DNA of 64,000 nt from contig JAIYDN010000012.1 of assembly GCA_027487485.1 (NCBI GenBank), positions 1-64,000 on the forward strand, written 5' to 3'. Position 1 is the stretch's first letter, and the number at the start of each line of letters is the position of its first letter. The DNA comes from Planctomycetaceae bacterium. Lineage in GTDB: Bacteria; Planctomycetota; Planctomycetia; Pirellulales; Pirellulaceae. Shown in pieces: positions 1,577-15,651 of the stretch. Under the pieces are notes generated by a model. The model made no database searches and was not told where the DNA came from. It was given only the letters and a program-made list of their open reading frames with translations. The translations under genes were made by a program, and so were the position numbers.

Positions 1577-3025
1577 CTAGGCCTTTTGGCGACGAAGCAG
1601 TTCTCGAATCGATTGACTGAGCTGCACAAGATGGTCGTCCGAAACCAAGGCCTTCTTGCCGTAAACCGCCAGCTCAAACAGCGACTTTAGGCTCGCACGT
1701 TCCAGCTTCGAAAGGGGACTTTGGGCGAGCTCCAGGTCCATGTCTTGAAGGTAACTTTGCCAAGCCGCATGCTTATCTTTGCCAGTCCAAGATCGGCAAA
1801 AGTTGCGAGCGAGTGTTTCGGCGGCGAAGCCATTTTGGTCCAGTGGATGATGCTGGTTGGATTGGATGTCATGCCAAGATCGCATTTTTCGGGGAGCCAT
1901 GTAGTCGACCAGCAACCTGGAACGTTTCATCAGCACCAAGACAATTCCAATGGCCAACGTTAGGGCGACCAAGGCCCAAACCCCTTGGAAGTACATTTTG
2001 GGTGGCATGCCTCGAGGTTGATTGCGCAGTGATTCGTTCGCAATATTGGACTCCGCGATTTTCTGGATTGCCGTGTTAGCGAACTTGAGAAAGCTGGCTG
2101 GCTTGAGTTGCACTTCCGTCTGCTCGCTTGGATTGGCCGATGCTTGATCTTGGGTGGAAGGAGATTTACGATCGTTCAATGCAGAGGAAGAACCACGTAC
2201 GGGTGATCCGTCCACGAGAAAAATCACTTTCTTGCGATTGCCATCGCACAGCCAATCTGCAACTTGAATGGTAAGCAGTCCGTTGTCACCATGCCAAAGC
2301 ATCGCATTCGAAAAGAGGCTGGCATCCGAAACGACGATAGCAGAACCTGCCTCTTTGGTTTTGGATTGCGAGATCGCGATCAACGCTTGAGCTTGACTGT
2401 TCGAAGGGGAAACATCCGATGGGAAAGTGGCCAAAGGTAACCAAGCGTCGGTCTTACCACGCACGGAGTTCGGTCGAGCGAGCCAGCCCGAACGGTTCGT
2501 CACAAGCTTCGAAATTCCCTTGGTAATAGGGTGTTCCTGCACTACGTCTTGCACAATCAAGCAGTCATTGAAACCATTGTATTGGATACTTGAGTTTGCT
2601 GACACGACCGGCCCTGCGTTGGACGTGCCAACATCGAGCAGTCCGATGCCAGCAAGCTGGTTCGTTCGATCGCTTGCCAAAAGCAGGTTTCCACCCTGCG
2701 AAATGAAACGACGCAAGCTGTTCCAGGCGTTGGTGGATAGCTTTCGTTGATCGCCTAGGAGTACCACGACCGATTCCTTGGGCCGTAGAATCGCGTCGTT
2801 GAGAAAAGGGGAATTTTCGAGCCCTCGTTTCTTCAGAACCAGTTGAAAAAGATCGTACCCAAAGTACCATTCGGGCAATTGTTCGCTATCGGGTTGCTCC
2901 AGCTGTGCGAAACAAGAGGGTGCAACGAGCCAACCAAGACAACTCGTTGGAATGCTCAGGCAAACCAAGAAAATGAAAACGCGAGTCCATCGTATCGCAT
3001 GAGATGCGGTTGTTAAGGTTCGCAT
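1577..3025 (-). CDS. DUF4350-like membrane-anchored protein
   Basis: 482 residues. A signal or anchor helix lies at about 13-33, a long extracytoplasmic region follows, and a second helix (WALVALTLAIGIVLVLM) sits near 345-367 before a roughly 115-residue cytoplasmic tail. The extracytoplasmic part contains phrases typical of DUF4350 (a GLGxxLDC-like fold related to ThuA/glutamine amidotransferases), such as LRRFISQGGNLLLA. It overlaps the upstream gene by 13 bases and is probably translated with it. In planctomycetes such proteins usually accompany DUF4129 proteins and MoxR-type ATPases. The biochemical role is unknown. Confidence 0.7.
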   Translation of the reverse strand: MRTLTTASHAIRWTRVFIFLVCLSIPTSCLGWLVAPSCFAQLEQPDSEQLPEWYFGYDLFQLVLKKRGLENSPFLNDAILRPKESVVVLLGDQRKLSTNAWNSLRRFISQGGNLLLASDRTNQLAGIGLLDVGTSNAGPVVSANSSIQYNGFNDCLIVQDVVQEHPITKGISKLVTNRSGWLARPNSVRGKTDAWLPLATFPSDVSPSNSQAQALIAISQSKTKEAGSAIVVSDASLFSNAMLWHGDNGLLTIQVADWLCDGNRKKVIFLVDGSPVRGSSSALNDRKSPSTQDQASANPSEQTEVQLKPASFLKFANTAIQKIAESNIANESLRNQPRGMPPKMYFQGVWALVALTLAIGIVLVLMKRSRLLVDYMAPRKMRSWHDIQSNQHHPLDQNGFAAETLARNFCRSWTGKDKHAAWQSYLQDMDLELAQSPLSKLERASLKSLFELAVYGKKALVSDDHLVQLSQSIRELLRRQKA

Positions 3026-4941
3026 GCTTGAATGGCCTTTCGCACCGAAGCTAATTGATCTTCTGATAGCTCCATATCGGATGGCAAATAACGAGCTTGC
3101 TCGTAAACCTCCGAAATAACGCGGACCGGTGAATGCATTTCTGGGCTAGTGCGAGATACTTGGTTGACGATACGTCGATGCGTCGACCAGGTCTCCAATG
3201 GATGAGCAATCCGATAAGCCAACTGATGGAAAGCGCGGACGACATCGGCGCGGTTCAAGATCAGTTCTGGTTGCTTGATGTAGTCGCCGTGTTGGCTGAC
3301 CGAATGAACAGCAAGCTGGGTCGCTTGCGCGGATTGTCGTCGGTACATCCAAAGAGAGACGATGCCAACGATGGTTGCTGCCAGAAACAAAAGCAGCCAA
3401 CCGCTTGGCATCGAAAACTCGAACGGACGAGCTGTTGTTGATGCTGTTGGGTTGGAACGTTCGCGATCGTTGGACGTCGAAGTGGTTGCCGAGGCTTCCA
3501 TCACTTGCTCGGCAAACTTGGAGAGCCAACTAGACCAACTGTTTTCTTGAGGTGGTGGCGTAGCCTTGTTCGCGATCTTAGGCGCGTCTTGGTTAGCAGC
3601 CTGGATGCTTTCTTGAGTTGGCCACGCTGGAGGGGGGGCGGCGGAACCCCTTGGGGCCGCAGAGGTTGATGGTCTAGCTGAAGGTGTGTTTGGCGAGGAA
3701 GGATTGGTTGCTTGCTGGCTGACGCTTGGTCGGTCTAGACGGTCAGGGTTCGCCTTTGCAGTGTTTGTTTCTGAAGGATTCGCAGTGTTGTTGGGGTTTT
3801 CCTGAGACGACTTCCTGGCCTCTTCAAGAATGTTCTCTAAGGTTGGACCGAAGCCCTTTTCTTGGAGCTGTTTCTTGATTTCAGGAGAAGTACCGCGCGT
3901 GTTCTTGGCATCGTTGTCTGACTTCTTGGGCTCGGTTGTCGATGAACCCTTTGCGGGAGAGCCATTCGCTGCATTTCGTTTTGCTTCCGCTTCTTCTGCT
4001 TCCCGTAAGAAATCGTCCATAGATTCAAACATCTCCTTTTGGGCGGAAGATGGTGTTGGATTGGTTGGTCGAGCTTCTTGAGGGGAACCGAACGGATCTT
4101 CGGGAGGGGAGTCCGTTGTCTGTTTGCCTGTTTGTCCAGAGTCGTTGTTCCCGTTCTTCTTGTCGCGAGTGCCGCCACCCTCAACCGCTTTGTTATCAAC
4201 TGCTTTGTTATCCTCTGGTTGAAGATCGCCCGAGCGATTGCTTTGCGGCGGGCCGCTTTTGGGGAGCGAATCTTTCGGCTTGGGATCAGGCGAGTTTGCT
4301 TGTGGTGGCTCCGAGTTCTTGGATGAAGGAGCGTTGCTTTTGAGAGAATCGAGTTCTTTGGCAAGATCGGGATCACCGTCAGCTTTCTTGCTCTGTTGGT
4401 ACTGTTCGACCAGTTGTTCTGCTTTTTTGCGAACTTCCGGATCTTCAAGGGCTTTGGACAAAAGTTCGTTGGAGATACCGTCTAGATTTTTCGCTTTCAG
4501 GCCCGGTGGCAGCTGGTCGCTCAGTTCCTTGATCACGTCCTGAAGTCGTTTGATATCAGCTTCCTTGGCGGGCGAGGGCGAGGAAGGGAGCGAGCGTTGA
4601 AGCAATTGTTCAAGCTGGGCAGCATCCGGCGGCAAACCAGTAGGCAGCGGAAGCCAACGCTGATATTGGGTCTCTAGTTTTTTCCCTTCGACCGGTTGGC
4701 GTGGTTTGACATTTGGTTTTGCGGAAGACGCCCTAGGCTGGGGCTGTGGCGATTGGGCTTGGGGCGATTGGGACTGTGGCGGCTGGGCGTAAGCCGATGG
4801 GCTGAATACCAACACGGCGACAGCACATCCAAGGAGGCATAGGATGGCTATCGAAAAAGCATGCGCGATACGCTGTTGAAGCACAGGTTGATTCAAAACG
4901 TTCTCCGATTTTTTGGTATTCGACCTAGCATACCCAACCAA
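3013..4941 (-). CDS. DUF4129-like transmembrane protein with long disordered region
   Basis: 642 residues read from a TTG start placed directly after the upstream stop. No ATG occurs before the first hydrophobic segment (about 26-46), so the true start could be a slightly later TTG. Residues 50-490 are low complexity (P, S, Q, N, K), consistent with a disordered extracytoplasmic linker. A helix near 508-530 (WLLLFLAATIVGIVSLWMY) precedes a roughly 110-residue soluble tail resembling the C-terminal part of DUF4129 proteins. It sits between a lipoprotein gene and the DUF4350-like gene, so the three probably form one envelope complex. Function not known. Confidence 0.65.
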   Translation of the reverse strand: MVGYARSNTKKSENVLNQPVLQQRIAHAFSIAILCLLGCAVAVLVFSPSAYAQPPQSQSPQAQSPQPQPRASSAKPNVKPRQPVEGKKLETQYQRWLPLPTGLPPDAAQLEQLLQRSLPSSPSPAKEADIKRLQDVIKELSDQLPPGLKAKNLDGISNELLSKALEDPEVRKKAEQLVEQYQQSKKADGDPDLAKELDSLKSNAPSSKNSEPPQANSPDPKPKDSLPKSGPPQSNRSGDLQPEDNKAVDNKAVEGGGTRDKKNGNNDSGQTGKQTTDSPPEDPFGSPQEARPTNPTPSSAQKEMFESMDDFLREAEEAEAKRNAANGSPAKGSSTTEPKKSDNDAKNTRGTSPEIKKQLQEKGFGPTLENILEEARKSSQENPNNTANPSETNTAKANPDRLDRPSVSQQATNPSSPNTPSARPSTSAAPRGSAAPPPAWPTQESIQAANQDAPKIANKATPPPQENSWSSWLSKFAEQVMEASATTSTSNDRERSNPTASTTARPFEFSMPSGWLLLFLAATIVGIVSLWMYRRQSAQATQLAVHSVSQHGDYIKQPELILNRADVVRAFHQLAYRIAHPLETWSTHRRIVNQVSRTSPEMHSPVRVISEVYEQARYLPSDMELSEDQLASVRKAIQACEP

Positions 4942-5403
4942 TTACTTTTTGGCGGCGACCACCCATAGTTCGTTAACATCGGGCTTATATTCGTAAACCA
5001 TTCCCTCTGGCAACACAGGCAATTTTATCTTGTTGGCTTCGATAATGTCACGCATGTATTCTTCTTGGCTCTTTGGTTTTCGCCCGTTGGTAGCTTCGAA
5101 AAAACTGAGTGCTTGAGGAATCTGGATTTCGAAAACAATCTTTTCTTTGGTATTGAAGTAGGCGACTGCGGGGCCCGTAATGATGCTTCGAGCGTCATTT
5201 TCGCCGATGCTATCAAGGCTGTTCCCTTGGAGCCCTACACCTACCTTTGCCACTTGGTCTTCCATGGGTGGTTTGGCTGCCAAGGCTTGAGCGTCCGCGG
5301 CTGCTTGTGCTTCTTCCTGGAGGATTTCCTCTTCCGGCCTGCATCCTAATGAAACGAAGGACAATGCAAGAGTCAGGGCGATTGAATGGCGTTTGTAAGG
5401 CAT
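4942..5403 (-). CDS. Small lipoprotein of unknown function
   Basis: About 153 residues from the ATG at 5403 (MPYKRHS). A short signal peptide ends in the lipobox-like SFVSLGC, so the mature protein should begin at that Cys and be lipid-anchored. The mature part starts with an acidic and Ala-rich stretch. Its C-terminal half (SQEEYMRDIIEANKIKLP, then YEYKPDVNELWVV) resembles type II secretion pseudopilin-like tails in other planctomycete lipoproteins, but I do not recognise a named family. The stop abuts the start of the DUF4129-like gene, so it is the first gene of that operon. Confidence 0.7.
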   Translation of the reverse strand: MPYKRHSIALTLALSFVSLGCRPEEEILQEEAQAAADAQALAAKPPMEDQVAKVGVGLQGNSLDSIGENDARSIITGPAVAYFNTKEKIVFEIQIPQALSFFEATNGRKPKSQEEYMRDIIEANKIKLPVLPEGMVYEYKPDVNELWVVAAKK

Positions 5404-5443
5404 CTTGGGGGGTGTCTCCAACAACGAAAGGGTTAAAAGGGCG

Positions 5444-6563: not shown

Positions 6564-7865
6564 ATGCAGGAAACTCGCTTCTTTGTCCGCCATAATTCGA
6601 AGATTCTATTTCGAAACAGGTCCTGGTCGACATCGCCCGGATTGTTCTTCCTGTGGTTGGGTGTACTGACATTCGGGCAATGGATTTTCGGGCAGAAGAG
6701 TATTGGACAAGAAGGCAATGCTGGCAAGCTGGATATTTCCGCAAGCTTGCTCGATGGTCAAACGTTGCGCGGCATGTTTCTAGAAGCGGATTCCGCCAAG
6801 TGCAGGATGACGGTTGGTAGTGCGCAACGTGACTTGCTGGCAAATGAGATTGGGTTCCTGAAATTGGGTGCTTCCCTTTCCAAGGATCGAATGCCAACGG
6901 AAGTGGTATTGTTGGATGGTAGCAAAGCGTTTGGAAAAATGCTGACGGGTAAATCGAGCGGTTGGCGACTTGAGGATGGTAGGCCTGAGGGGCTTGTTAT
7001 TCCAGCCAAATCGATTCGAGCAGCTCGACTGAAAGAGTTGCCTGCCACACTCGAGCCGAATTGGCAGGCCGCCATCAACGAACCCGCCGAGTCGGATGCG
7101 GTCATCGTGATGCGTGGAACTGAATCTCTGGAACGAATCAATGGCATCATCGTTCAGGTGCAAGAAACAAGTGTTTCCTTTGAACTGGATGGTGAGCCGA
7201 TCGAGATTCCTCTGGAAAAACTAGCTGGCCTCATTTGGTTCCAGCGTCCGTTGGAGCGTATTCAGCCTACGATCGAAATCGTATCGAGTAACCATTCTGT
7301 TTGGCTGGCTGAATCGTTCTCGACCTCGAAGGATTCGCTCGCGCTGAAGACTCAGTTGAACCAGAACGTTTCTTTGCCGTTGTCTTCGATCGTTAGCATT
7401 GATTACTCCACCGCCAACATTCGATGGCTGTCGGACTTGGAGGTTCTTGAATCGATTGGCAACAAGAGCGTGGACTTCAAGGGCAAGATAGCAAGTCTGG
7501 ATCGAGCCATGGCCCCTAGGTTTGTCTCGGAACAGGGAACGTTACCATCCGACGCGTCCTCCAAAGAGAAGGACCTGTATTTTCCCGGTCCTGGTCGATT
7601 CACGTTTCGCGTGCCGGAGGGATTCCAATCCTTCCAGGCGCAGATCGTTCGCACCGACGATGGTTCCCAGCGTACCAATCTTACTATTGAGATTTGGCAA
7701 GATGACAACCGCCTTTCCCAGCAGAGCCTGCCTTACGATGTCGATTCGGTGGATGTCAACCTACCAGTTCCATCGGGCAAAAAGGTCCAGCTTCGCGTTG
7801 CATGCAATTCGAAACTCATGGTAGGAACAGAAGTCCAATGGAAGCAACCAAGACTCAAACGCTAA
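6564..7865 (+). CDS. Secreted protein of unknown function, NPCBM-like C-terminal region
   Basis: 433 residues. A long basic N-terminus is followed by a hydrophobic segment (about 26-44) ending near FGQKSIGQ, consistent with a signal peptide or anchor. The body has repeated short beta-strand modules of the type LLDGQTLRG, VLLDGSKAFGK and IPLEKLAGLIW. The C-terminal part (RFTFRVPEGFQSFQA, then VQLRVACNSK) looks like a carbohydrate-binding NPCBM/NEW2-type beta-sandwich; that is an inference from the strand pattern. The HtrA-like gene starts 21 bases after its stop, so this appears to be the first gene of the protease cluster. There is no strong Shine-Dalgarno. Confidence 0.65.
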   Translation: MQETRFFVRHNSKILFRNRSWSTSPGLFFLWLGVLTFGQWIFGQKSIGQEGNAGKLDISASLLDGQTLRGMFLEADSAKCRMTVGSAQRDLLANEIGFLKLGASLSKDRMPTEVVLLDGSKAFGKMLTGKSSGWRLEDGRPEGLVIPAKSIRAARLKELPATLEPNWQAAINEPAESDAVIVMRGTESLERINGIIVQVQETSVSFELDGEPIEIPLEKLAGLIWFQRPLERIQPTIEIVSSNHSVWLAESFSTSKDSLALKTQLNQNVSLPLSSIVSIDYSTANIRWLSDLEVLESIGNKSVDFKGKIASLDRAMAPRFVSEQGTLPSDASSKEKDLYFPGPGRFTFRVPEGFQSFQAQIVRTDDGSQRTNLTIEIWQDDNRLSQQSLPYDVDSVDVNLPVPSGKKVQLRVACNSKLMVGTEVQWKQPRLKR

Positions 7866-7885: not shown

Positions 7886-9766
7886 ATGGATTGGATCATT
7901 CAGGCACGATCGCTTTCGGGGCGTTATTGGATTCCTGCGAACCCTGTCTTGGCTAGCGCAGCTTTCGCCCGCACCGTGTTTGCATTCCGTTTATCTGCTG
8001 TGGCGATGTTGATCGTATCCGCGTTGGGGCCGAGCTTTGTTTCCAAAGGACACTCGCAATCGGCTCCTGAAGTCAGCCCCGCGGTATTGGAAGCACAGCA
8101 GTTGCGTATCCAAGCCATGAAACAGGCCTCGCTCGCGACGGTAGCAGTCTACGGTACGGATGGGCAAGGGGGAGGAAGCGGTGTCTGCATTTCGCCGGAC
8201 GGGTACGTTCTGACGAACTTTCACGTTTCCAGTCCGTTCGGTCATCGCATGCGCTGCGGTCTCAACGATGGAAAAATGTATGAAAGCATCGTCACCGGGG
8301 TCGACCCAACCGGGGATTTGGCAGTTCTGAAGATGGTTGGCCGAGACGATTTCCCGAGTGCGAGCATCGGCAACAGCGATGATGTCCGCATTGGACAATG
8401 GTGCTTTGCTGCGGGCAACCCATTTGTCTTGGCGACGAACCTTCAGCCGACCGTTACCTACGGCTTGATTAGCGGGGTGCGTCGGTACCAGTACCCAAGC
8501 AACACGATCTTGGAATATAGCGATTGCATTCAAACCGATGCTGCCATCAATCCAGGCAATTCCGGCGGACCTCTGTTTAACATGCGAGGCGAGTTGATTG
8601 GGATTAATGGCCGTTGTTCCTTTGAGAAGCGTGGTCGTGTCAACGTGGGGGTCGGTTACGCAATCTCGATCAAGCAAGCCATGAATTTCTTGTGGCAGCT
8701 AAAATCAGGCCGCGTGGTGGACCATGCCACTTTGGGATTCACCGTAGCAACCGACACCAAAGGCAAGGTAAGCGTTTCCAATATCCTTGAGAGCAGCGAC
8801 GCGTATCGCCGAGGAATTCGATTCGGGGACGAAATATTGCGATTGGGAGATCGCGATGTTGCGACCACCAATCAGCTCAAGAACATTTTGGGGATCTTTC
8901 CTGATCAATGGCGGATCCCAATTCGCTTTCGAAACGATGATGAAACGATCGATACGTATGTGCGACTGCAAAGCCTGCACTTACCAAGCGAATTGGAAGA
9001 GATCATCAAGGGGGAGGCCGCTCAGCGCCAGCAACCACCGGTTCCCAAGAAGCCATCTGCTGAAGAGCCCATTCCCGATGAGAAAGAAAAAGCACTTCAA
9101 GCTCAGGTGGTTCTTAAAGCGGATCCTCTGGAAGGGCTTTATGCGGAAAAGCGTGGTTTCTCCAACTACTACTTCAACCGGCTTCAGCTCGATCGCATCC
9201 TGGCGCTTCAGGTTCAAGATGGCAAATGGAACGATAGCTCGGAATCATGGAGAATTGTGGGCGAAGTACCCAAAGAGCAGCTGGCTATTGAGATGCTGCT
9301 GAATGACGAAGCATTGACCTTTCGCATGCAAGACAAGTCCGAGACGGTGCATCCCCGGCAGGGCTGGCCCGCCAGTATCAAACAACGCGCATCCATGGGC
9401 GTGGCAATGGGGATGCGACTGTGGCAAGAATGGCATCGACGAGGGCCGCGGTTGATGGGGGATGCGGTTTACTTGGGGCGGAATCCAGTGGTGGGACGCG
9501 AGGATCTGTTCGACGTGACTCGAATCACCGTCAGCGATTTTGATACGCTTGTGTATACGTCGCCCAAAAATGGACAGATTGAACTGATCGAGATCTTTGC
9601 GGATGGACAATCCGATCCGGTCGAATTGTACTTCGAAAAATACGAACCCGTTCAAGGCCGACTGACCCCTAAGCTGTTGCGATTGTCCTACGGCTTAGAA
9701 ACCAAGTTTCTTGTTGCGATCGACCTATTTGAAACTACCAGCCCAGCCGGAGGTCAAGGACTATGA
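7886..9766 (+). CDS. HtrA/Deg-like secreted serine protease with PDZ domain and C-terminal extension
   Basis: 626 residues from the ATG at 7886, where TAGGT lies five bases upstream; earlier in-frame ATGs at 7838 and 7802 would lengthen it. A signal/anchor helix (LSAVAMLIVSALG) precedes a trypsin-like domain with all triad residues: His113 in LTNFHV, Asp144 in GDLAVLK and Ser226 in NPGNSGGPL. A PDZ-like domain lies at about 285-370. The last 250 residues, after a Pro/Lys/Glu-rich linker, match no family I recognise. It is the intact, presumably active member of three tandem paralogues and likely a periplasmic protease. The downstream gene starts inside its stop codon (ATGA). Confidence 0.85.
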   Translation: MDWIIQARSLSGRYWIPANPVLASAAFARTVFAFRLSAVAMLIVSALGPSFVSKGHSQSAPEVSPAVLEAQQLRIQAMKQASLATVAVYGTDGQGGGSGVCISPDGYVLTNFHVSSPFGHRMRCGLNDGKMYESIVTGVDPTGDLAVLKMVGRDDFPSASIGNSDDVRIGQWCFAAGNPFVLATNLQPTVTYGLISGVRRYQYPSNTILEYSDCIQTDAAINPGNSGGPLFNMRGELIGINGRCSFEKRGRVNVGVGYAISIKQAMNFLWQLKSGRVVDHATLGFTVATDTKGKVSVSNILESSDAYRRGIRFGDEILRLGDRDVATTNQLKNILGIFPDQWRIPIRFRNDDETIDTYVRLQSLHLPSELEEIIKGEAAQRQQPPVPKKPSAEEPIPDEKEKALQAQVVLKADPLEGLYAEKRGFSNYYFNRLQLDRILALQVQDGKWNDSSESWRIVGEVPKEQLAIEMLLNDEALTFRMQDKSETVHPRQGWPASIKQRASMGVAMGMRLWQEWHRRGPRLMGDAVYLGRNPVVGREDLFDVTRITVSDFDTLVYTSPKNGQIELIEIFADGQSDPVELYFEKYEPVQGRLTPKLLRLSYGLETKFLVAIDLFETTSPAGGQGL

Positions 9767-10806
9767 TGCGAAGGACTCTAAAGATCGCAACGTTGCTTGC
9801 TCCGTTCTTGGCGATGGCTTGCTGGGTCATGAACCAAGTCATCGCGGCGGAGATCCAGCGGGACGCGAATGTTACCATCAACAACGAAGCCTTGATTTCG
9901 ACCAGTCAAGAAAAAGTGGTCAAGTTGTATGGGGCAGGTGGTGTTAAGGGACTGGAGAGCTACCAGAGCGGTGTCATCATCGACGACCAAGGTCATATCT
10001 TGACCAGCTGGAGCACGGTGTTGGACGTACCGAAAGTACGAGTTGTCACCTTCGATGGACGTCGTTTGGATGCAACGATGGTGGGTGTTGACCCCCAAAA
10101 TGAACTTGCCGTTTTGAAAATTGAGGATGCAGGTCTGGTTGGCTTCGATTTAACCAATCCAGCCGCTGCAAGCACGGGGCAGCGCGTGTTCGCTATTAGC
10201 AATCTTTTTGGTATCGCCGCGGGCAACGAATCCTGTAGCGCTCAAAAGGGTGTCATCATGGCAACAACACCATTGACCACGCGCCGAGGCAAAATCAAGT
10301 CGCTGTATCAAGGCAAAGTTTATGTTCTGGACGTCGTTACGAACAATCCCGGTGCGTCGGGTGGAGCATTGATCGATTTGCAAGGCAGGCTGATCGGTGT
10401 CATCGGGAAAGAGATTCGCGACGAGCAAGCTGGAGTTTGGATTAACTATGCGCTTCCTATCGAAGTTGCAAAAGCATCGATCGATCGCATTCTCAGCGGT
10501 ACCTCCGGTAGCTCCGACGCGGAATTAAAATCGGTCGCGCAACCTCATCTGGTGAACTCACTTGGTTTGACGTTGATCCCGGACGTTCTCGCGAAAACAC
10601 CGCCCTTTATTGACAAAGTGCGCGAAGGATCGACCGCTGATAAAAGTGGCCTCCAAACCAACGACCTTGTCCTTCTGCTCAATGATCAACGAGTCGATTC
10701 ACGCAAGTCACTTGAGAAGATGCTATCCACCATCAATCGAGAAGACTCATTCTACTTGCTCGTACAACGCGGCCAGGAATTAATCCGTATCCATGTTCGA
10801 CCTTAA
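9763..10806 (+). CDS. HtrA-like pseudoprotease with PDZ domain (His and Asp of triad lost)
   Basis: 347 residues with a signal peptide ending near VIAAE. The trypsin-like fold is clear (SGVIIDDQGHILTSW, NELAVLK, NNPGASGGALI), but two catalytic positions are changed. The HtrA TNxH motif reads TSWS, so His is replaced by Ser84, and the Asp before LAVLK is Glu114. Ser179 remains in GASGG. A PDZ domain occupies about 265-345. The ATG overlaps the preceding stop by four bases and has GGAGG nine bases upstream (9749-9753), so it is translationally coupled to the intact protease. It is most likely a non-catalytic adaptor or regulator of that enzyme. Confidence 0.85.
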   Translation: MMRRTLKIATLLAPFLAMACWVMNQVIAAEIQRDANVTINNEALISTSQEKVVKLYGAGGVKGLESYQSGVIIDDQGHILTSWSTVLDVPKVRVVTFDGRRLDATMVGVDPQNELAVLKIEDAGLVGFDLTNPAAASTGQRVFAISNLFGIAAGNESCSAQKGVIMATTPLTTRRGKIKSLYQGKVYVLDVVTNNPGASGGALIDLQGRLIGVIGKEIRDEQAGVWINYALPIEVAKASIDRILSGTSGSSDAELKSVAQPHLVNSLGLTLIPDVLAKTPPFIDKVREGSTADKSGLQTNDLVLLLNDQRVDSRKSLEKMLSTINREDSFYLLVQRGQELIRIHVRP

Positions 10807-12877
10807 TCAACTGTCTCAACGCAATCATCTGGCTCAACGCTATCCTTTGGCTCAACGTCTGCAAAGTGCAACAAACGGCTTCGGTCCAGGTAATCGCATT
10901 TGCGGGAACTGGCTGTTGATTTTGTGGGGTGCGCTGTTTTTGGCTTCTTGTATCTTGTTAGAAGGTGTTACCATTGCGAGCGATCCACCGTTGGACGAGC
11001 TGGAGCAAATTGCTTTTCAGAGCGCTTCTGACTTCGCTCAAGATTGTGTGGTACAGATCGAAACGTTTGGTGGACAAGAGATTGTCAATAAGCAGTTCGT
11101 TGCAACAGGTCCATCCTCTGGAACCGTTCTGTCAGCGGACGGGTGGATTATCACTAGCACCTTTCAGTTCAAGGGGCAGCCAGCTTCCATCACAGTTGTT
11201 TTGCCGGATGATCAGCGCAAGGCGGCCAAGCTGGTCGCTCGCGATTTTAGCCGCGAGCTTGCGCTGTTGAAAATTGACGTGGACAAACCGCTTCGTGCAG
11301 CGGTTCCCAGTCAGAAATCGCAATGGGAAGTAGGTCAATGGGCCATCGCTTTAGGGAAGACTTTTGATTTTAAAACCGCAAGCCGAAGTGTTGGCATCTT
11401 GAGTGCTCAGGGCCGTATCTTCAATCGCGCCATTCAAACGGATGCAAAGATATCCCCACAAAATTACGGTGGACCCCTGATCGATCTGCAAGGGAATGTG
11501 ATGGGAATTCTCGCCCCCATGAATCCTGGGATTGCGACGGAGGGAGAGGTCGAGCAGTGGTATGATTCAGGAGTTGGTTTTGCTGTTCCGTTGGAGGATG
11601 TACTGGAAAGACTTCCGAGATTGCAAACCGGGGAAGACATTCATCCTGGCAAGGCAGGCTTTCGATCGAGCAGTGCCGACGAATTCGCTCCGGAAATTCT
11701 GCTCAGTGGAGTCACTCCGGGTTCGCCGGCCGCTAAAGCAGGTCTCAAAGCGGGAGATCGGATTGTGGGTGCTGGCCTAACGCCGCAAAGCATCCGACCC
11801 GTTGCCATGCATTCGGAGCTCAAGCATATCATGGGCACCGTGGATGCAGGCAAGAGCATGACCTTTGATATCGATCGGCAAGGGACTCGATATCAATTGG
11901 ACGTTACCCTGGTAAAAGAATTGCCCATCTATCGCGAGCCCTTTTTGGGAGTGGTCATTGATCCGCTCAGTCCTAGCAATTTGCCAAAGGTATCTGCAGT
12001 TGTACCTAATTCACCAGCAAGTCAATCGGGTGTTCAAGTTGGCGATGTAATTGTGAGTGTCGCGGGGGTAGCTTTGGACGACGCGAACACGCTCGACAAC
12101 AAGATTGCGTTCGTGGATTATCGTGAGCCGCTGGATTTTCAATGGAGAGACGCAAATGGAACGGAACGCACGACCAAAACAACTTTGACAACACCACCCG
12201 AGGAAGATCTGGAATGGGCTCCGGTGCTATTTCCTGTTCCGAACGATGCGGCGGAAACCAAAGGAGCTAAGGGAACGGTTCAGCTTCCTTTAGGAGATAT
12301 CAAGAACAAAGCTTTTGCGATCGTACCGTCCAATTATTGCGATGAATTGCCTCACGGGTTGTTGATTGTTTTTGCGGACGCTGGGGTTCAGGATCAAAAG
12401 ATTTGGTCCGATGCTTGGGAGGCGTTTGCTCGTGACAACCGCTGGATCGTGGTGGTCGCTCAGTCTGCTGACGAGAAGGCTTGGTCGTTTGAGGAAGTGG
12501 AAGTCGCCAGCCGTCTTCGGTCGTATGTCAGCACGAATTATAAGATTGACAAGCGACGGGTGTGCATCGCGGGTGTTTCGGCAGGAACCTTGCCTGCTTA
12601 TGTGACTGCCATGCAAGGGATTGAATCGTACCGTGGTGTCTGGTTGTGCAATGCGAAAATGTCGGCGCGGGTCCGAGTGCTACCAGCCGAACCGCTGAAG
12701 TCTTTGCAGTTTTTTGTGAACGGGTCCGAAGCGGCGTTACCTGAGTTTGTTGAGCTGGCAAAAAAATCTGGGCATAGCGTTGCATTGAGCGCGGAGGAAT
12801 TGACAGCCAGCAAGATGGTGGATTCGCCGGTGATAGGCAAGCTTCAGCGATGGCTGCGTTTGCTGGAGGCGCGTTAG
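10793..12877 (+). CDS. HtrA-like pseudoprotease, two PDZ domains and an alpha/beta-hydrolase-like domain
   Basis: 694 residues, overlapping the previous gene by 14 bases. Residues 7-24 hold three hexapeptides of the form L(A/S)QRxx before a membrane or signal helix (about 40-57). In the trypsin-like domain every triad position is lost: His is Phe124 (TSTF), Asp is Glu155 (RELALLK) and Ser is Tyr225 (SPQNYGGPL). PDZ domains follow at about 300-375 and 383-465. The last 190 residues resemble an alpha/beta hydrolase, with Ser596 in GVSAG. A catalytic His near the C-terminus is not obvious, so esterase activity is uncertain. A scaffold or sensor role beside the active protease is an inference. 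Confidence 0.8.
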   Translation: MFDLNQLSQRNHLAQRYPLAQRLQSATNGFGPGNRICGNWLLILWGALFLASCILLEGVTIASDPPLDELEQIAFQSASDFAQDCVVQIETFGGQEIVNKQFVATGPSSGTVLSADGWIITSTFQFKGQPASITVVLPDDQRKAAKLVARDFSRELALLKIDVDKPLRAAVPSQKSQWEVGQWAIALGKTFDFKTASRSVGILSAQGRIFNRAIQTDAKISPQNYGGPLIDLQGNVMGILAPMNPGIATEGEVEQWYDSGVGFAVPLEDVLERLPRLQTGEDIHPGKAGFRSSSADEFAPEILLSGVTPGSPAAKAGLKAGDRIVGAGLTPQSIRPVAMHSELKHIMGTVDAGKSMTFDIDRQGTRYQLDVTLVKELPIYREPFLGVVIDPLSPSNLPKVSAVVPNSPASQSGVQVGDVIVSVAGVALDDANTLDNKIAFVDYREPLDFQWRDANGTERTTKTTLTTPPEEDLEWAPVLFPVPNDAAETKGAKGTVQLPLGDIKNKAFAIVPSNYCDELPHGLLIVFADAGVQDQKIWSDAWEAFARDNRWIVVVAQSADEKAWSFEEVEVASRLRSYVSTNYKIDKRRVCIAGVSAGTLPAYVTAMQGIESYRGVWLCNAKMSARVRVLPAEPLKSLQFFVNGSEAALPEFVELAKKSGHSVALSAEELTASKMVDSPVIGKLQRWLRLLEAR
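12865..12869 (+). promoter_or_regulatory. Shine-Dalgarno GGAGG fixing a GTG start
   Basis: GGAGG lies seven bases before the GTG at 12877, which overlaps the upstream TAG by one base. An in-frame ATG at 12850 precedes this site and has no comparable ribosome-binding sequence, so GTG is the better start. Confidence 0.6.
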
Positions 12878-13290
12878 TGGCAACGCCGAACTCGAACCGT
12901 AGTCCTCAATCGAAGGGTGGCTCTCTATCCAAGGGAGGGCTGGAGCATGTTCGATGGGTGGCGTTTGCGTTGTCCATCGTTTTGATTCTGGCTTCGTTGA
13001 TTTTGCGGCTGCAACCTCAATTGCTTCCGAAGAGTTCTTCGCTTGCTTCCGAATTGTTGGGCAAGGTCGGAATCGTAACCCTTTGTATTTGGCTTGCGTG
13101 GCCCGCCATTGAAACCATGCTGCGTGCCCCGAGCGGGATGGCCTTTGCGGCTGCTTCCGGTTTCGCCATCATCCTTTTTATCTATCGCCCGAAGACCATT
13201 TACATCACTGGCCCATTTTTGCTGGTCGGAGCCGGAATCATTTTGATTCTGAATTGGTTAAAGACGTCGGGCAAACGCAAAGGCCGATAA
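12877..13290 (+). CDS. Small integral membrane protein, last gene of the HtrA cluster
   Basis: 137 residues from a GTG start. A polar N-terminus with SKGG repeats is followed by about four hydrophobic helices (AFALSIVLILASLIL, VTLCIWLAW, AAASGFAIILFIY, GPFLLVGAGIILIL) and a basic tail, KTSGKRKGR. The family is not recognised. It shares its first base with the preceding stop, so it is coupled to the HtrA-like genes and could anchor or position their products at the membrane. That role is inferred only from position. Confidence 0.7.
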   Translation: MATPNSNRSPQSKGGSLSKGGLEHVRWVAFALSIVLILASLILRLQPQLLPKSSSLASELLGKVGIVTLCIWLAWPAIETMLRAPSGMAFAAASGFAIILFIYRPKTIYITGPFLLVGAGIILILNWLKTSGKRKGR

Positions 13291-14020: not shown

Positions 14021-14313
14021 GATTTCATTCCGTGAAACTTGAAAGTACAGGCTGGTGCGGTTCGCTACGGGAGCCTATCGCAAGAGTATCGGTGATTTCA
14101 AGTCGGGACTGAACAAAACTAGTTGGAACCGTCACTGTCCGACTCGTATTAAGCTAGCTAAGCCTTCCCGAAACATGGTCTTTGGTCTTGAATCCATAGA
14201 GTGAATTTCGGACACTCCGAACAGTTCCTGGTGCCGTTGTCGGGATGACAGGCCTATGGCCACGTTGGCGAAGGGTAGCCACAGAGAATCGAGCAACAGA
14301 AGGATCTGTTTTT
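14021..14313. other. Divergent intergenic region, nothing recognised
   Basis: These 293 bases separate the glycine-zipper gene and the thioredoxin-trypsin gene and must hold both promoters. I see no tRNA, strong hairpin or clear -35/-10 pair. An open frame from 14245 that would extend the plus-strand gene lacks a signal peptide at its own N-terminus, so 14314 is preferred. Confidence 0.4.
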
Positions 14314-15651
14314 ATGTTTCGACGCAACGTTTTCCTTAGCCTTTTCCTGGTTGCCGTAAGCCATTTGGTTTTCTCGACGCACCTTGTGTTGGCTCAATCG
14401 ACGGGTGACTGCATTGCTTTAGAATTTTCCTCGGAAGGTTGCGAGCAATGTTTGAACATGCACACCACGACCGACAAGGCCATTCAGGACGGATGGGTTG
14501 TTCGTCGATTCGATACAAAAAAAGATCCTCACATCGCAATGCGATGGCAGATTCAGAATGTTCCAACGACGGTTCTGGTTCGAAATGGTCGCGAGGTGGA
14601 TCGCATTTTGGGCCCGGTTGATTATCGTGAACTGAGTCGCCGGATGGAATCGGCTTCGTCGGTCGATAGCATGCGAAGTCTTTCGGAAAAGGTTCAAAGT
14701 CGAAATGAATCATCGGCTGCTGTGGTGCGAGGTCAATCGCCATTGGCGATGATTCCCGTTGCCTCATCGGCCGCTTCAGCGTTTGCTACTTCCCAAGCAT
14801 CTTCCCAAGCAGCCCCTGGTCGTTTGACTTCGAGTCCTACGTTGGAAGCGATGTCCAGCCCGGCTAGGAATCGTGAATCGACGGTTCGGATTCGCATTGT
14901 GGAGCCCAGTCAAGATTCGGTGGGAACAGGGACCGTGATTGACATGGTGAACGGTGAAGCCTTGGTGTTGACATGCGGGCATTTGTTCCGCGACATGCAA
15001 GGGTCGGCAAGCATTATCATCGATACGTTTGTTGGCGGAAGAACGATGTCCTTTCCTGGGACCTTGGTCGATTTTGAAGCGAGTGAGATGGATATTGGGT
15101 TGGTCGCTTTCCGTCCGTCCGTTGCTATGCCGGTAGCGCGTTTGATCCCTAAGAACCGACGACTATCCGAGGGACAAAAGGTGAGTAGTTGGGGATGCAA
15201 TCGCGGTGCAGATCCCACGCCGATGGTGTCGCAGATTACCAAATTGAACCGCTATGTAGGTGCTCCGAATGTCGAAGTGGATGGGCAGCCAGTCGAGGGT
15301 CGGAGCGGTGGTGGACTATTTGACGAACGAGGTGAGTTGATTGGCGTTTGCTATGCAGCTGATCCTACCTTGAAGGAAGGCCTTTATAGCGCTGCCGACG
15401 TTGTTTACCATGAACTATCGAAATTAGGGCTTCAACGTCTGTTCAACGACCGCAATGACGAAGAACTTTCCAGTGCTTCGTTGGGTGTGCCCCCTGTTCC
15501 TTCCGTTTCCATCGAACCGACCAAGGGACGACAGGAACCGATCGAAATGACAGTCATCATCAAGGACCGAACTGGAAACCAAGAACGAATCGATATTCCG
15601 CAACCAAGTGCCCAGTTGGTGCAAGCGATGCGTGATAGCGTGCGCCGGTAG
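14314..15651 (+). CDS. Secreted thioredoxin-like and trypsin-like fusion protein
   Basis: 445 residues from the ATG at 14314, giving a clean signal peptide that ends near LVLAQ. The first domain (about 30-105) is thioredoxin-like, with C43-E-Q-C46 and a cis-Pro in NVPTTV (Pro84). After an Ala/Ser-rich linker, a trypsin-like domain (about 190-390) shows His223 in LTCGHLF, Asp260 in EMDIGLVAF and Ser331 in EGRSGGGLF, so the triad looks intact. It should act outside the cytoplasm, combining redox and proteolytic modules. The short tail is rich in Pro, Glu and Arg. It is separate from the HtrA cluster and has no close downstream partner. Confidence 0.8.
   Translation: MFRRNVFLSLFLVAVSHLVFSTHLVLAQSTGDCIALEFSSEGCEQCLNMHTTTDKAIQDGWVVRRFDTKKDPHIAMRWQIQNVPTTVLVRNGREVDRILGPVDYRELSRRMESASSVDSMRSLSEKVQSRNESSAAVVRGQSPLAMIPVASSAASAFATSQASSQAAPGRLTSSPTLEAMSSPARNRESTVRIRIVEPSQDSVGTGTVIDMVNGEALVLTCGHLFRDMQGSASIIIDTFVGGRTMSFPGTLVDFEASEMDIGLVAFRPSVAMPVARLIPKNRRLSEGQKVSSWGCNRGADPTPMVSQITKLNRYVGAPNVEVDGQPVEGRSGGGLFDERGELIGVCYAADPTLKEGLYSAADVVYHELSKLGLQRLFNDRNDEELSSASLGVPPVPSVSIEPTKGRQEPIEMTVIIKDRTGNQERIDIPQPSAQLVQAMRDSVRR

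Follow-up and report, generated by a model that had tools for sequence, protein, structure and literature searches.

Why should a bacterium keep two HtrA-like proteins without a complete catalytic triad immediately behind one that has it? The question is raised by a stretch of 64,000 nucleotides from a Planctomycetaceae bacterium (contig JAIYDN010000012.1 of assembly GCA_027487485.1, positions 1 to 64,000; hereafter the window), where three HtrA-type genes, here called A, B, and C, follow each other. The source genome is a 7.49-Mb planctomycete genome in 114 contigs, and Pirellula metagenome assemblies are among its nearest named relatives. B and C are two old, selected, and catalytically dead HtrA paralogues that are tied to one active-type HtrA, A, by inheritance, gene order, and gene fusion, and the system is conserved and not in decay. 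Judged from their sequences, the three proteins are probably dedicated subunits of a single envelope protease system, where B and C would be pseudoproteases that most likely are assembled with A and have a regulatory role. A location in the envelope is suggested by the signal-like N-termini.

Catalytic residues of the three paralogues

An earlier note on this DNA described three coupled HtrA paralogues at 7886..12877, and the open reading frames (ORFs) are indeed found there. All three score above the Pfam Trypsin_2 cut-off of 27.6 bits (A 105.1, B 81.0, and C 64.8), and the predicted models of A and C align with HtrA chains. The common fold, the PDZ-type domains, and the overlapping gene order also hold: PDZ domains are matched above the Pfam cut-off in B and C and just below it in A (22.7 vs. 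23.2), and the gene ends overlap by 4 bases between A and B and by 14 bases between B and C.

The triad residues were tallied over distinct sequences including that of the window, identical domains being counted once. In the count before de-duplication, two B sequences of less than 200 residues were excluded, and three truncated A sequences lack some or all of the columns. His-Asp-Ser (HDS) is found in all of the 108 A sequences. The His position of B is occupied by Ser in 104, Asn in 6, and Thr in 2 of the 112 sequences and never by His, while its nucleophile position displays Ala (90), Ser (7), Thr (6), Gly (4), Pro (3), Asp (1), or Gln (1). In C the catalytic Ser is replaced by Tyr in 127 of 128 sequences and by Phe in one, and the catalytic His is replaced by Phe in 94. 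Two C sequences do have His at this position, both with Tyr for Ser, and a full HDS triad is found in none of the 128. The states originally read from the window (H141/D172/S254 in A, numbered from the alternative start at 7802, S84/E114/S199 in B, and F124/E155/Y225 in C) are all correct.

That B keeps its Ser, as the same note stated, is true for the window but atypical for the protein. The Ser-bearing B rows, eight before de-duplication and with the window among them, all come from close relatives of the window and are interspersed with Ala and Thr rows. This confinement and mixing suggest that the Ser has reappeared recently and is not a relic. No near-invariant His is present in any well-filled column of B or C; the maxima are 82% and 66%, respectively, and the 82% column of B corresponds to window residue 78, six residues N-terminal to the catalytic position. 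This speaks against a relocated triad, and a displaced His/Asp/Ser set of the kind the earlier note had allowed for was accordingly not seen in the alignments of either protein.

The three states had further been taken as a stepwise loss of the triad, and this idea had to be given up. In a quick tree of 169 protease-PDZ domains (midpoint drawing, several rows of unusual composition, and support only from the Shimodaira-Hasegawa-like approximate likelihood ratio test, SH-aLRT), C (48 rows), A (43), and B (43) form one group each with SH-aLRT values of 100, 100, and 99. Six other HtrA-like domains from the window's genome group apart. The three clades span the sampled families and contain many matching subgroups, as judged by eye. 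Since A, B, and C are separate clades, and since the Ser-bearing B rows lie among Ala and Thr rows, decay from A via B to C is rejected. The Asp-to-Glu and His-to-Phe changes of C are moreover only two among many replacements found at those columns.

Clusters of a second type, in which an HDS gene is accompanied by one or two non-HDS domains, were observed in L253, L254, L256, L260-L265, and L267; the active gene is the last one in about half of them. In some of these (e.g., L254, L262, L265, and L267) two non-HDS genes are followed by the HDS gene, and the sequences branch beside the A, B, and C groups with weaker support. An old origin of the combination of one active and two dead HtrAs is thereby suggested, though not proven.

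Selection, co-inheritance, and fusion

The intact frames of B and C had been held to argue against decay, and the ratios of nonsynonymous to synonymous substitution rates (dN/dS) agree, showing both frames to be constrained. For close pairs (dS <1, the window being in none of them) dN/dS is 0.055-0.125 for A (10 pairs), 0.015-0.076 for B (10 pairs), and 0.038-0.091 for C (11 pairs); in pairs with dS >1 it reaches 0.17, 0.19, and 0.19, respectively. When the domains of C are analyzed separately in six pairs, the values are 0.012-0.050 for the dead trypsin domain, 0.064-0.138 for the PDZ pair, and 0.014-0.105 for the hydrolase-like domain, the trypsin domain being below the PDZ pair in all six pairs and below the hydrolase domain in four. 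B and C are under purifying selection.

The gene order was surveyed in a set of 60 regions and in 80 named loci, both chosen by a C match and with some contigs in common. The order A-B-C is found in 55 of the regions, 50 of which also contain the upstream gene Z, and in 66 of the named loci, and is thus no chance arrangement. The remaining loci have B-C only (five), C only (eight), or an A-B fusion before C (one), and most of the 13 incomplete ones start near a contig end. A(HDS)-B-C is also present in each of 20 regions that were likewise picked by a C match but come from other families of the phylum, with A and B fused in four. One genome, G337, carries two complete trios (L250 and L251).

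In the window's family, 56 of 60 genomes have a C match with an E value of 1e-40 or lower. Across the phylum, 46 of 294 genomes have both B and C, none has B alone, and one has C alone, on a contig of 5,450 bases. For this tally C was listed with a limit of E 1e-38, and its type was assigned by NYGG (fetched loci) or by the YDSG pattern. The B profile splits the 294 genomes cleanly, 46 of them at E 1.9e-73 or better and the next best at 1.3e-51, and in 44 of these 46 B lies immediately 5' of C on the same strand with at most 1.2 kb between the matched parts. The C motif YDSG-I-G/A-F occurs in 45 of the 294 genomes compared to four for the reversed control, and it misses the window's own C; G128 and G155 contain the pattern but give no P0003 match at E 1e-20 and were excluded as chance.

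A and B are fused in five loci (L149, L233, L236, L245, and L246), and B and C in one (L126). The hydrophobic segment (internal signal peptide) before the second protein is gone in all six, the highest 15-residue hydropathy being 0.50-1.08. In unfused proteins the corresponding median is 2.22 for B (119 proteins) and 2.14 for C (95 proteins), and about 5 and 9%, respectively, fall below 1.6. In the tree L236 and L246 are sisters, and the remaining fusions are found in different parts of it, except for L149, which belongs to the window's family. Together, the triad tallies, the dN/dS values, the co-occurrence, and the fusions with lost internal signal peptides support the proposal that an active protease is accompanied by two dedicated, selected pseudoprotease partners.

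Additional domains and neighboring genes

Four features had not been described earlier, namely the conserved gene Z, gene D, the C-terminal domain of A, and the hydrolase-like domain of C. Table 1 gives the coordinates; Z, A, B, C, and D all have the same orientation.

Table 1. Positions in the window of the genes, domains, and catalytic-site codons of the HtrA cluster.
Feature	Position	Strand	Remarks
Gene Z	6564..7865	+	Pfam NPCBM E 0.0019 and DUF150_C E 0.00045, both below cut-off; 5' of A in 50/60 regions
Gene A, active-type HtrA: trypsin fold, one PDZ, extra C-terminal domain	7886..9766	+	Alternative start 7802
A catalytic His141 codon	8222..8224	+	
A catalytic Asp172 codon	8315..8317	+	
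A catalytic Ser254 codon	8561..8563	+	
Gene B, pseudo-HtrA: trypsin fold, one PDZ	9763..10806	+	Trypsin_2 81.0 bits; catalytic-column His in 0/112 distinct sequences
B Ser84, replacing catalytic His	10012..10014	+	
B Glu114, replacing catalytic Asp	10102..10104	+	
B Ser199, nucleophile position, mostly Ala in relatives	10357..10359	+	
Gene C, pseudo-HtrA: two PDZ domains, C-terminal alpha/beta-hydrolase-like domain	10793..12877	+	
C Phe124, replacing catalytic His	11162..11164	+	
C Glu155, replacing catalytic Asp	11255..11257	+	
C Tyr225, replacing catalytic Ser, nearly invariant	11465..11467	+	
C two PDZ domains, ~residues 285-462	11645..12178	+	Pfam PDZ, PDZ_2, and PDZ_6 in two stretches
C alpha/beta-hydrolase-like domain, residues 494-694	12272..12874	+	Profile match 3wyd_A, E 1.3e-11
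Gene D, small membrane protein (membrane nature read from sequence)	12850..13290	+	28-base overlap with C

The C-terminal domain of C is identified by sequence profile only, the match being to the esterase LC-Est1C; a fold search with the whole C model gave solely HtrA-type chains among the matches listed. Pfam Abhydrolase_3 is weakly matched by 18 of 57 members of this domain and not by the window sequence alone at E 0.01. The nucleophile column of the hydrolase elbow motif contains Ser in only four of 59 sequences, the window being one of these four, and C is therefore a pseudoprotease fused to a domain that is a pseudohydrolase in most relatives. The C of G300 (L076 6843-8891) is found in two frames, split between the PDZ and the hydrolase parts. 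For the C-terminal domain of A (~residues 430-654 of the window protein P0001) no confident family was found, and no structural match was seen among the matches listed; DUF4292 is weakly matched in three of 50 members (best E 7.4e-4). In the A proteins of the sister loci L241 and L243, the catalytic His motif is separated from the remaining protease domain by a long insertion.

The module extends to the upstream gene Z, and in other lineages it appears to follow a MoxR-DUF58-BatA-like operon. Gene D, which has no family match above cut-off, is found 3' of C in 16 of the 80 named loci, i.e., in close relatives. Of 100 regions searched, 60 have a coiled-coil gene, Y, 5' of A and in the same orientation, usually 2.2-2.8 kb before the A frame. 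It was taken from a clustering of neighbors in which the groups inspected were mostly shadow ORFs. In the window and in L128-L149 no Y was found next to the cluster; in the window's genome the gene is divided between the ends of two further contigs, and one of the parts adjoins the last of the Y-upstream genes. Most of nine loci inspected have a gene of ~350-410 residues between Y and Z, without a family match above cut-off. Five genes 5' of Y are common, by BLAST similarity, to seven of eight stretches chosen outside the window's genus. In L272 they encode a MoxR-type AAA_3 protein, a DUF58 protein, a BatA/VWA protein, a VWA protein, and one protein without a match. Pfam names were obtained for L272 and for three genes of L274 and the remaining Y-upstream genes were assigned by BLAST similarity, one of those in L275 possibly to the wrong one of two neighboring families. 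In L272 (4055-15347) and the similar stretches L273-L278, all from outside the window's genus group, the MoxR-DUF58-BatA/VWA-VWA operon is followed by Y and leads on towards the HtrA trio. The opposite-strand proteins upstream in the window (3013-4941 and 4942-5424) were rejected as members of the module, having no relatives beside other clusters.

The window's genome contains 24 Trypsin_2 matches. Another Trypsin_2 protein, which has an N-terminal thioredoxin-like domain, is found downstream of the trio, past an opposite-strand gene (14245-15651). On contig C108 (L271 1126-3791) a GDSGG-bearing HtrA-like gene is followed by a gene that matches HtrA profiles only piecewise, and this may be another pair of an active and a degenerate protein. 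Two Trypsin_2 matches within a single frame are found in L269 1385-2839 (contig C71) and in L268 1913-4699 (contig C94).

Proposed assembly of the system, precedents, and alternatives

Known HtrA folds trimerise and relay activation signals between neighboring subunits. In the proposed envelope protease system, A is the only subunit with the residues for peptide-bond cleavage, and B and C would be kept for their HtrA fold. They would most likely assemble with A, possibly as an A:B:C heterotrimer, leaving few catalytic sites, and would act as fixed allosteric and substrate-docking subunits, B through its one PDZ domain and C through its two PDZ domains and with the dead hydrolase domain as a binding module. 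As the module appears to be encoded behind a MoxR-DUF58-BatA-like operon in many lineages, it may be the proteolytic arm of the MoxR-Bat membrane machinery. A more far-reaching version, which we put forward only tentatively, is that of an obligate asymmetric heterotrimer predating the split of the planctomycete families that hold it, with one cutter and two permanently dead sensing or docking subunits, one of them a double pseudoenzyme, serving as the MoxR-Bat protease arm. In that case a single ancient design would underlie the repeatedly found triplets with one HDS and two non-HDS HtrAs.

Several points weigh against such a joint assembly and its link to MoxR-Bat. Fusion and gene order show a shared function but no stoichiometry, and HtrA paralogues could instead form separate homo-oligomers. 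C is separated from A-B in some genomes (in G349 and G320 A and B adjoin and C is elsewhere), and in G087 and G105 all three genes are dispersed; they are all kept in each of these genomes. Four of the 60 family genomes, which are 73-94% complete, lack C at E 1e-40. G307 and G344 have no C match at 1e-40 and no strong A or B either, G332 has A without B, and G340 has A and B without a C match (1e-40); in the latter two the gene lies <600 bases from the contig end on the side of the next gene. Neither B nor C is found in 247 of the 294 phylum genomes. The 46 genomes with both are related, and since related sequences are no independent events, the counts measure co-inheritance. MoxR/Bat genes were found neither around the window nor in the 4-12 kb stretches around the second-type triplets.

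Active and inactive paralogues are combined in the ClpP/ClpR protease of cyanobacteria and plastids, which has a fold unrelated to that of HtrA, is cytoplasmic or stromal, and is ATP-driven. In plant chloroplasts Deg5 and Deg8 are two HtrA paralogues that work jointly in one compartment. Separate structures have been described for these, and unlike B and C both have the triad Ser and His according to the part of the report cited (PMC3640471). DegP, DegQ, and DegS of the Do family differ from the present system in that B and C have no triad and A has an extra C-terminal domain, and the scores are far below the cut-off of NCBIfam TIGR02037 (416.2 bits; A 206.5, B 121.5, and C 170.6). The system that comes closest is that of magnetotactic bacteria, in which the pseudo-HtrA MamO is encoded with the active MamE. 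In the sections cited, MamO promotes MamE proteolysis, and its presence, but not its triad, is required for MamE activity (PMC4794232). The sequences point to the same pairing of an active HtrA with a dead relative. However, there are two pseudoproteases here and one there, and the gene context is another. MamO takes part in magnetite formation and contains a metal site as well as a transporter domain; B and C instead carry PDZ domains and show no near-invariant His pair. With an NCBIfam cut-off of 800 bits, the best MamE and MamO scores are 99.8 and 50.6, both for A. PflC of Campylobacter resembles B and C in lacking the triad but is a structural protein that builds the disk of the flagellar motor, and the part of the report cited mentions no adjacent active partner (PMC12222027). 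Planctomycetes are rich in PDZ proteins, and the word "inactive" does not occur in the cited part of a PDZ survey (PMC6411480). Among the matches listed in an open-access literature search, no title or abstract describes the present system.

HtrA folds can retain a chaperone function without catalysis, and B and C might thus form homotrimers of their own that act as protease-dead chaperones or scaffolds beside A, unmixed with it. PflC, a triad-less HtrA relative that builds a flagellar disk (PMC12222027), is in line with this, as is the finding that C can be far from A and B. The five A-B fusions and the B-C fusion, on the other hand, place the subunits on one chain, and B never occurs without C among the 294 genomes; the B of G340, from outside this sample, has no partner C at E 1e-40 and lies close to a contig end. 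Separate homotrimers are therefore considered rather unlikely. That B and C have remained hydrolases, with an active site that has moved or is unusual, is very unlikely. C does have Ser, Tyr, and Asp residues that are invariant and lie away from the old triad, and in the window B keeps its Ser and C has a Ser in the hydrolase motif, but neither protein has a near-invariant His, and these Ser residues are missing from 105 of 112 distinct B sequences and from 55 of 59 C domains.

MamO binds a transition metal by two surface His residues, as described in the part of the report cited (PMC4794232), and B and C could have been repurposed in a similar way. Since the His content of the well-filled columns nowhere exceeds the maxima given above, no invariant di-His site is visible; a MamO-like di-His metal site in B or C is thus unsupported, and this explanation is likewise very unlikely. 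The view that B and C are decaying duplicates kept by hitch-hiking can point to in-frame stops in draft-genome copies of C (G300, G326, G216, and G111) and of B (G274 and G214), but there is also such a copy of the active A (G340). With dN/dS far below 1 and clades that span the sampled families, this view is already contradicted and is given practically no credence.

HtrA proteases have mainly been studied as homo-oligomers with mutually activating subunits. If A, B, and C are indeed joined in one protease, its fixed live and dead subunits would make it possible to trace each allosteric step to a single chain. A portion of the planctomycete envelope proteome that is strongly conserved would then have a function, and proteolysis would be linked to the poorly understood MoxR-Bat system.

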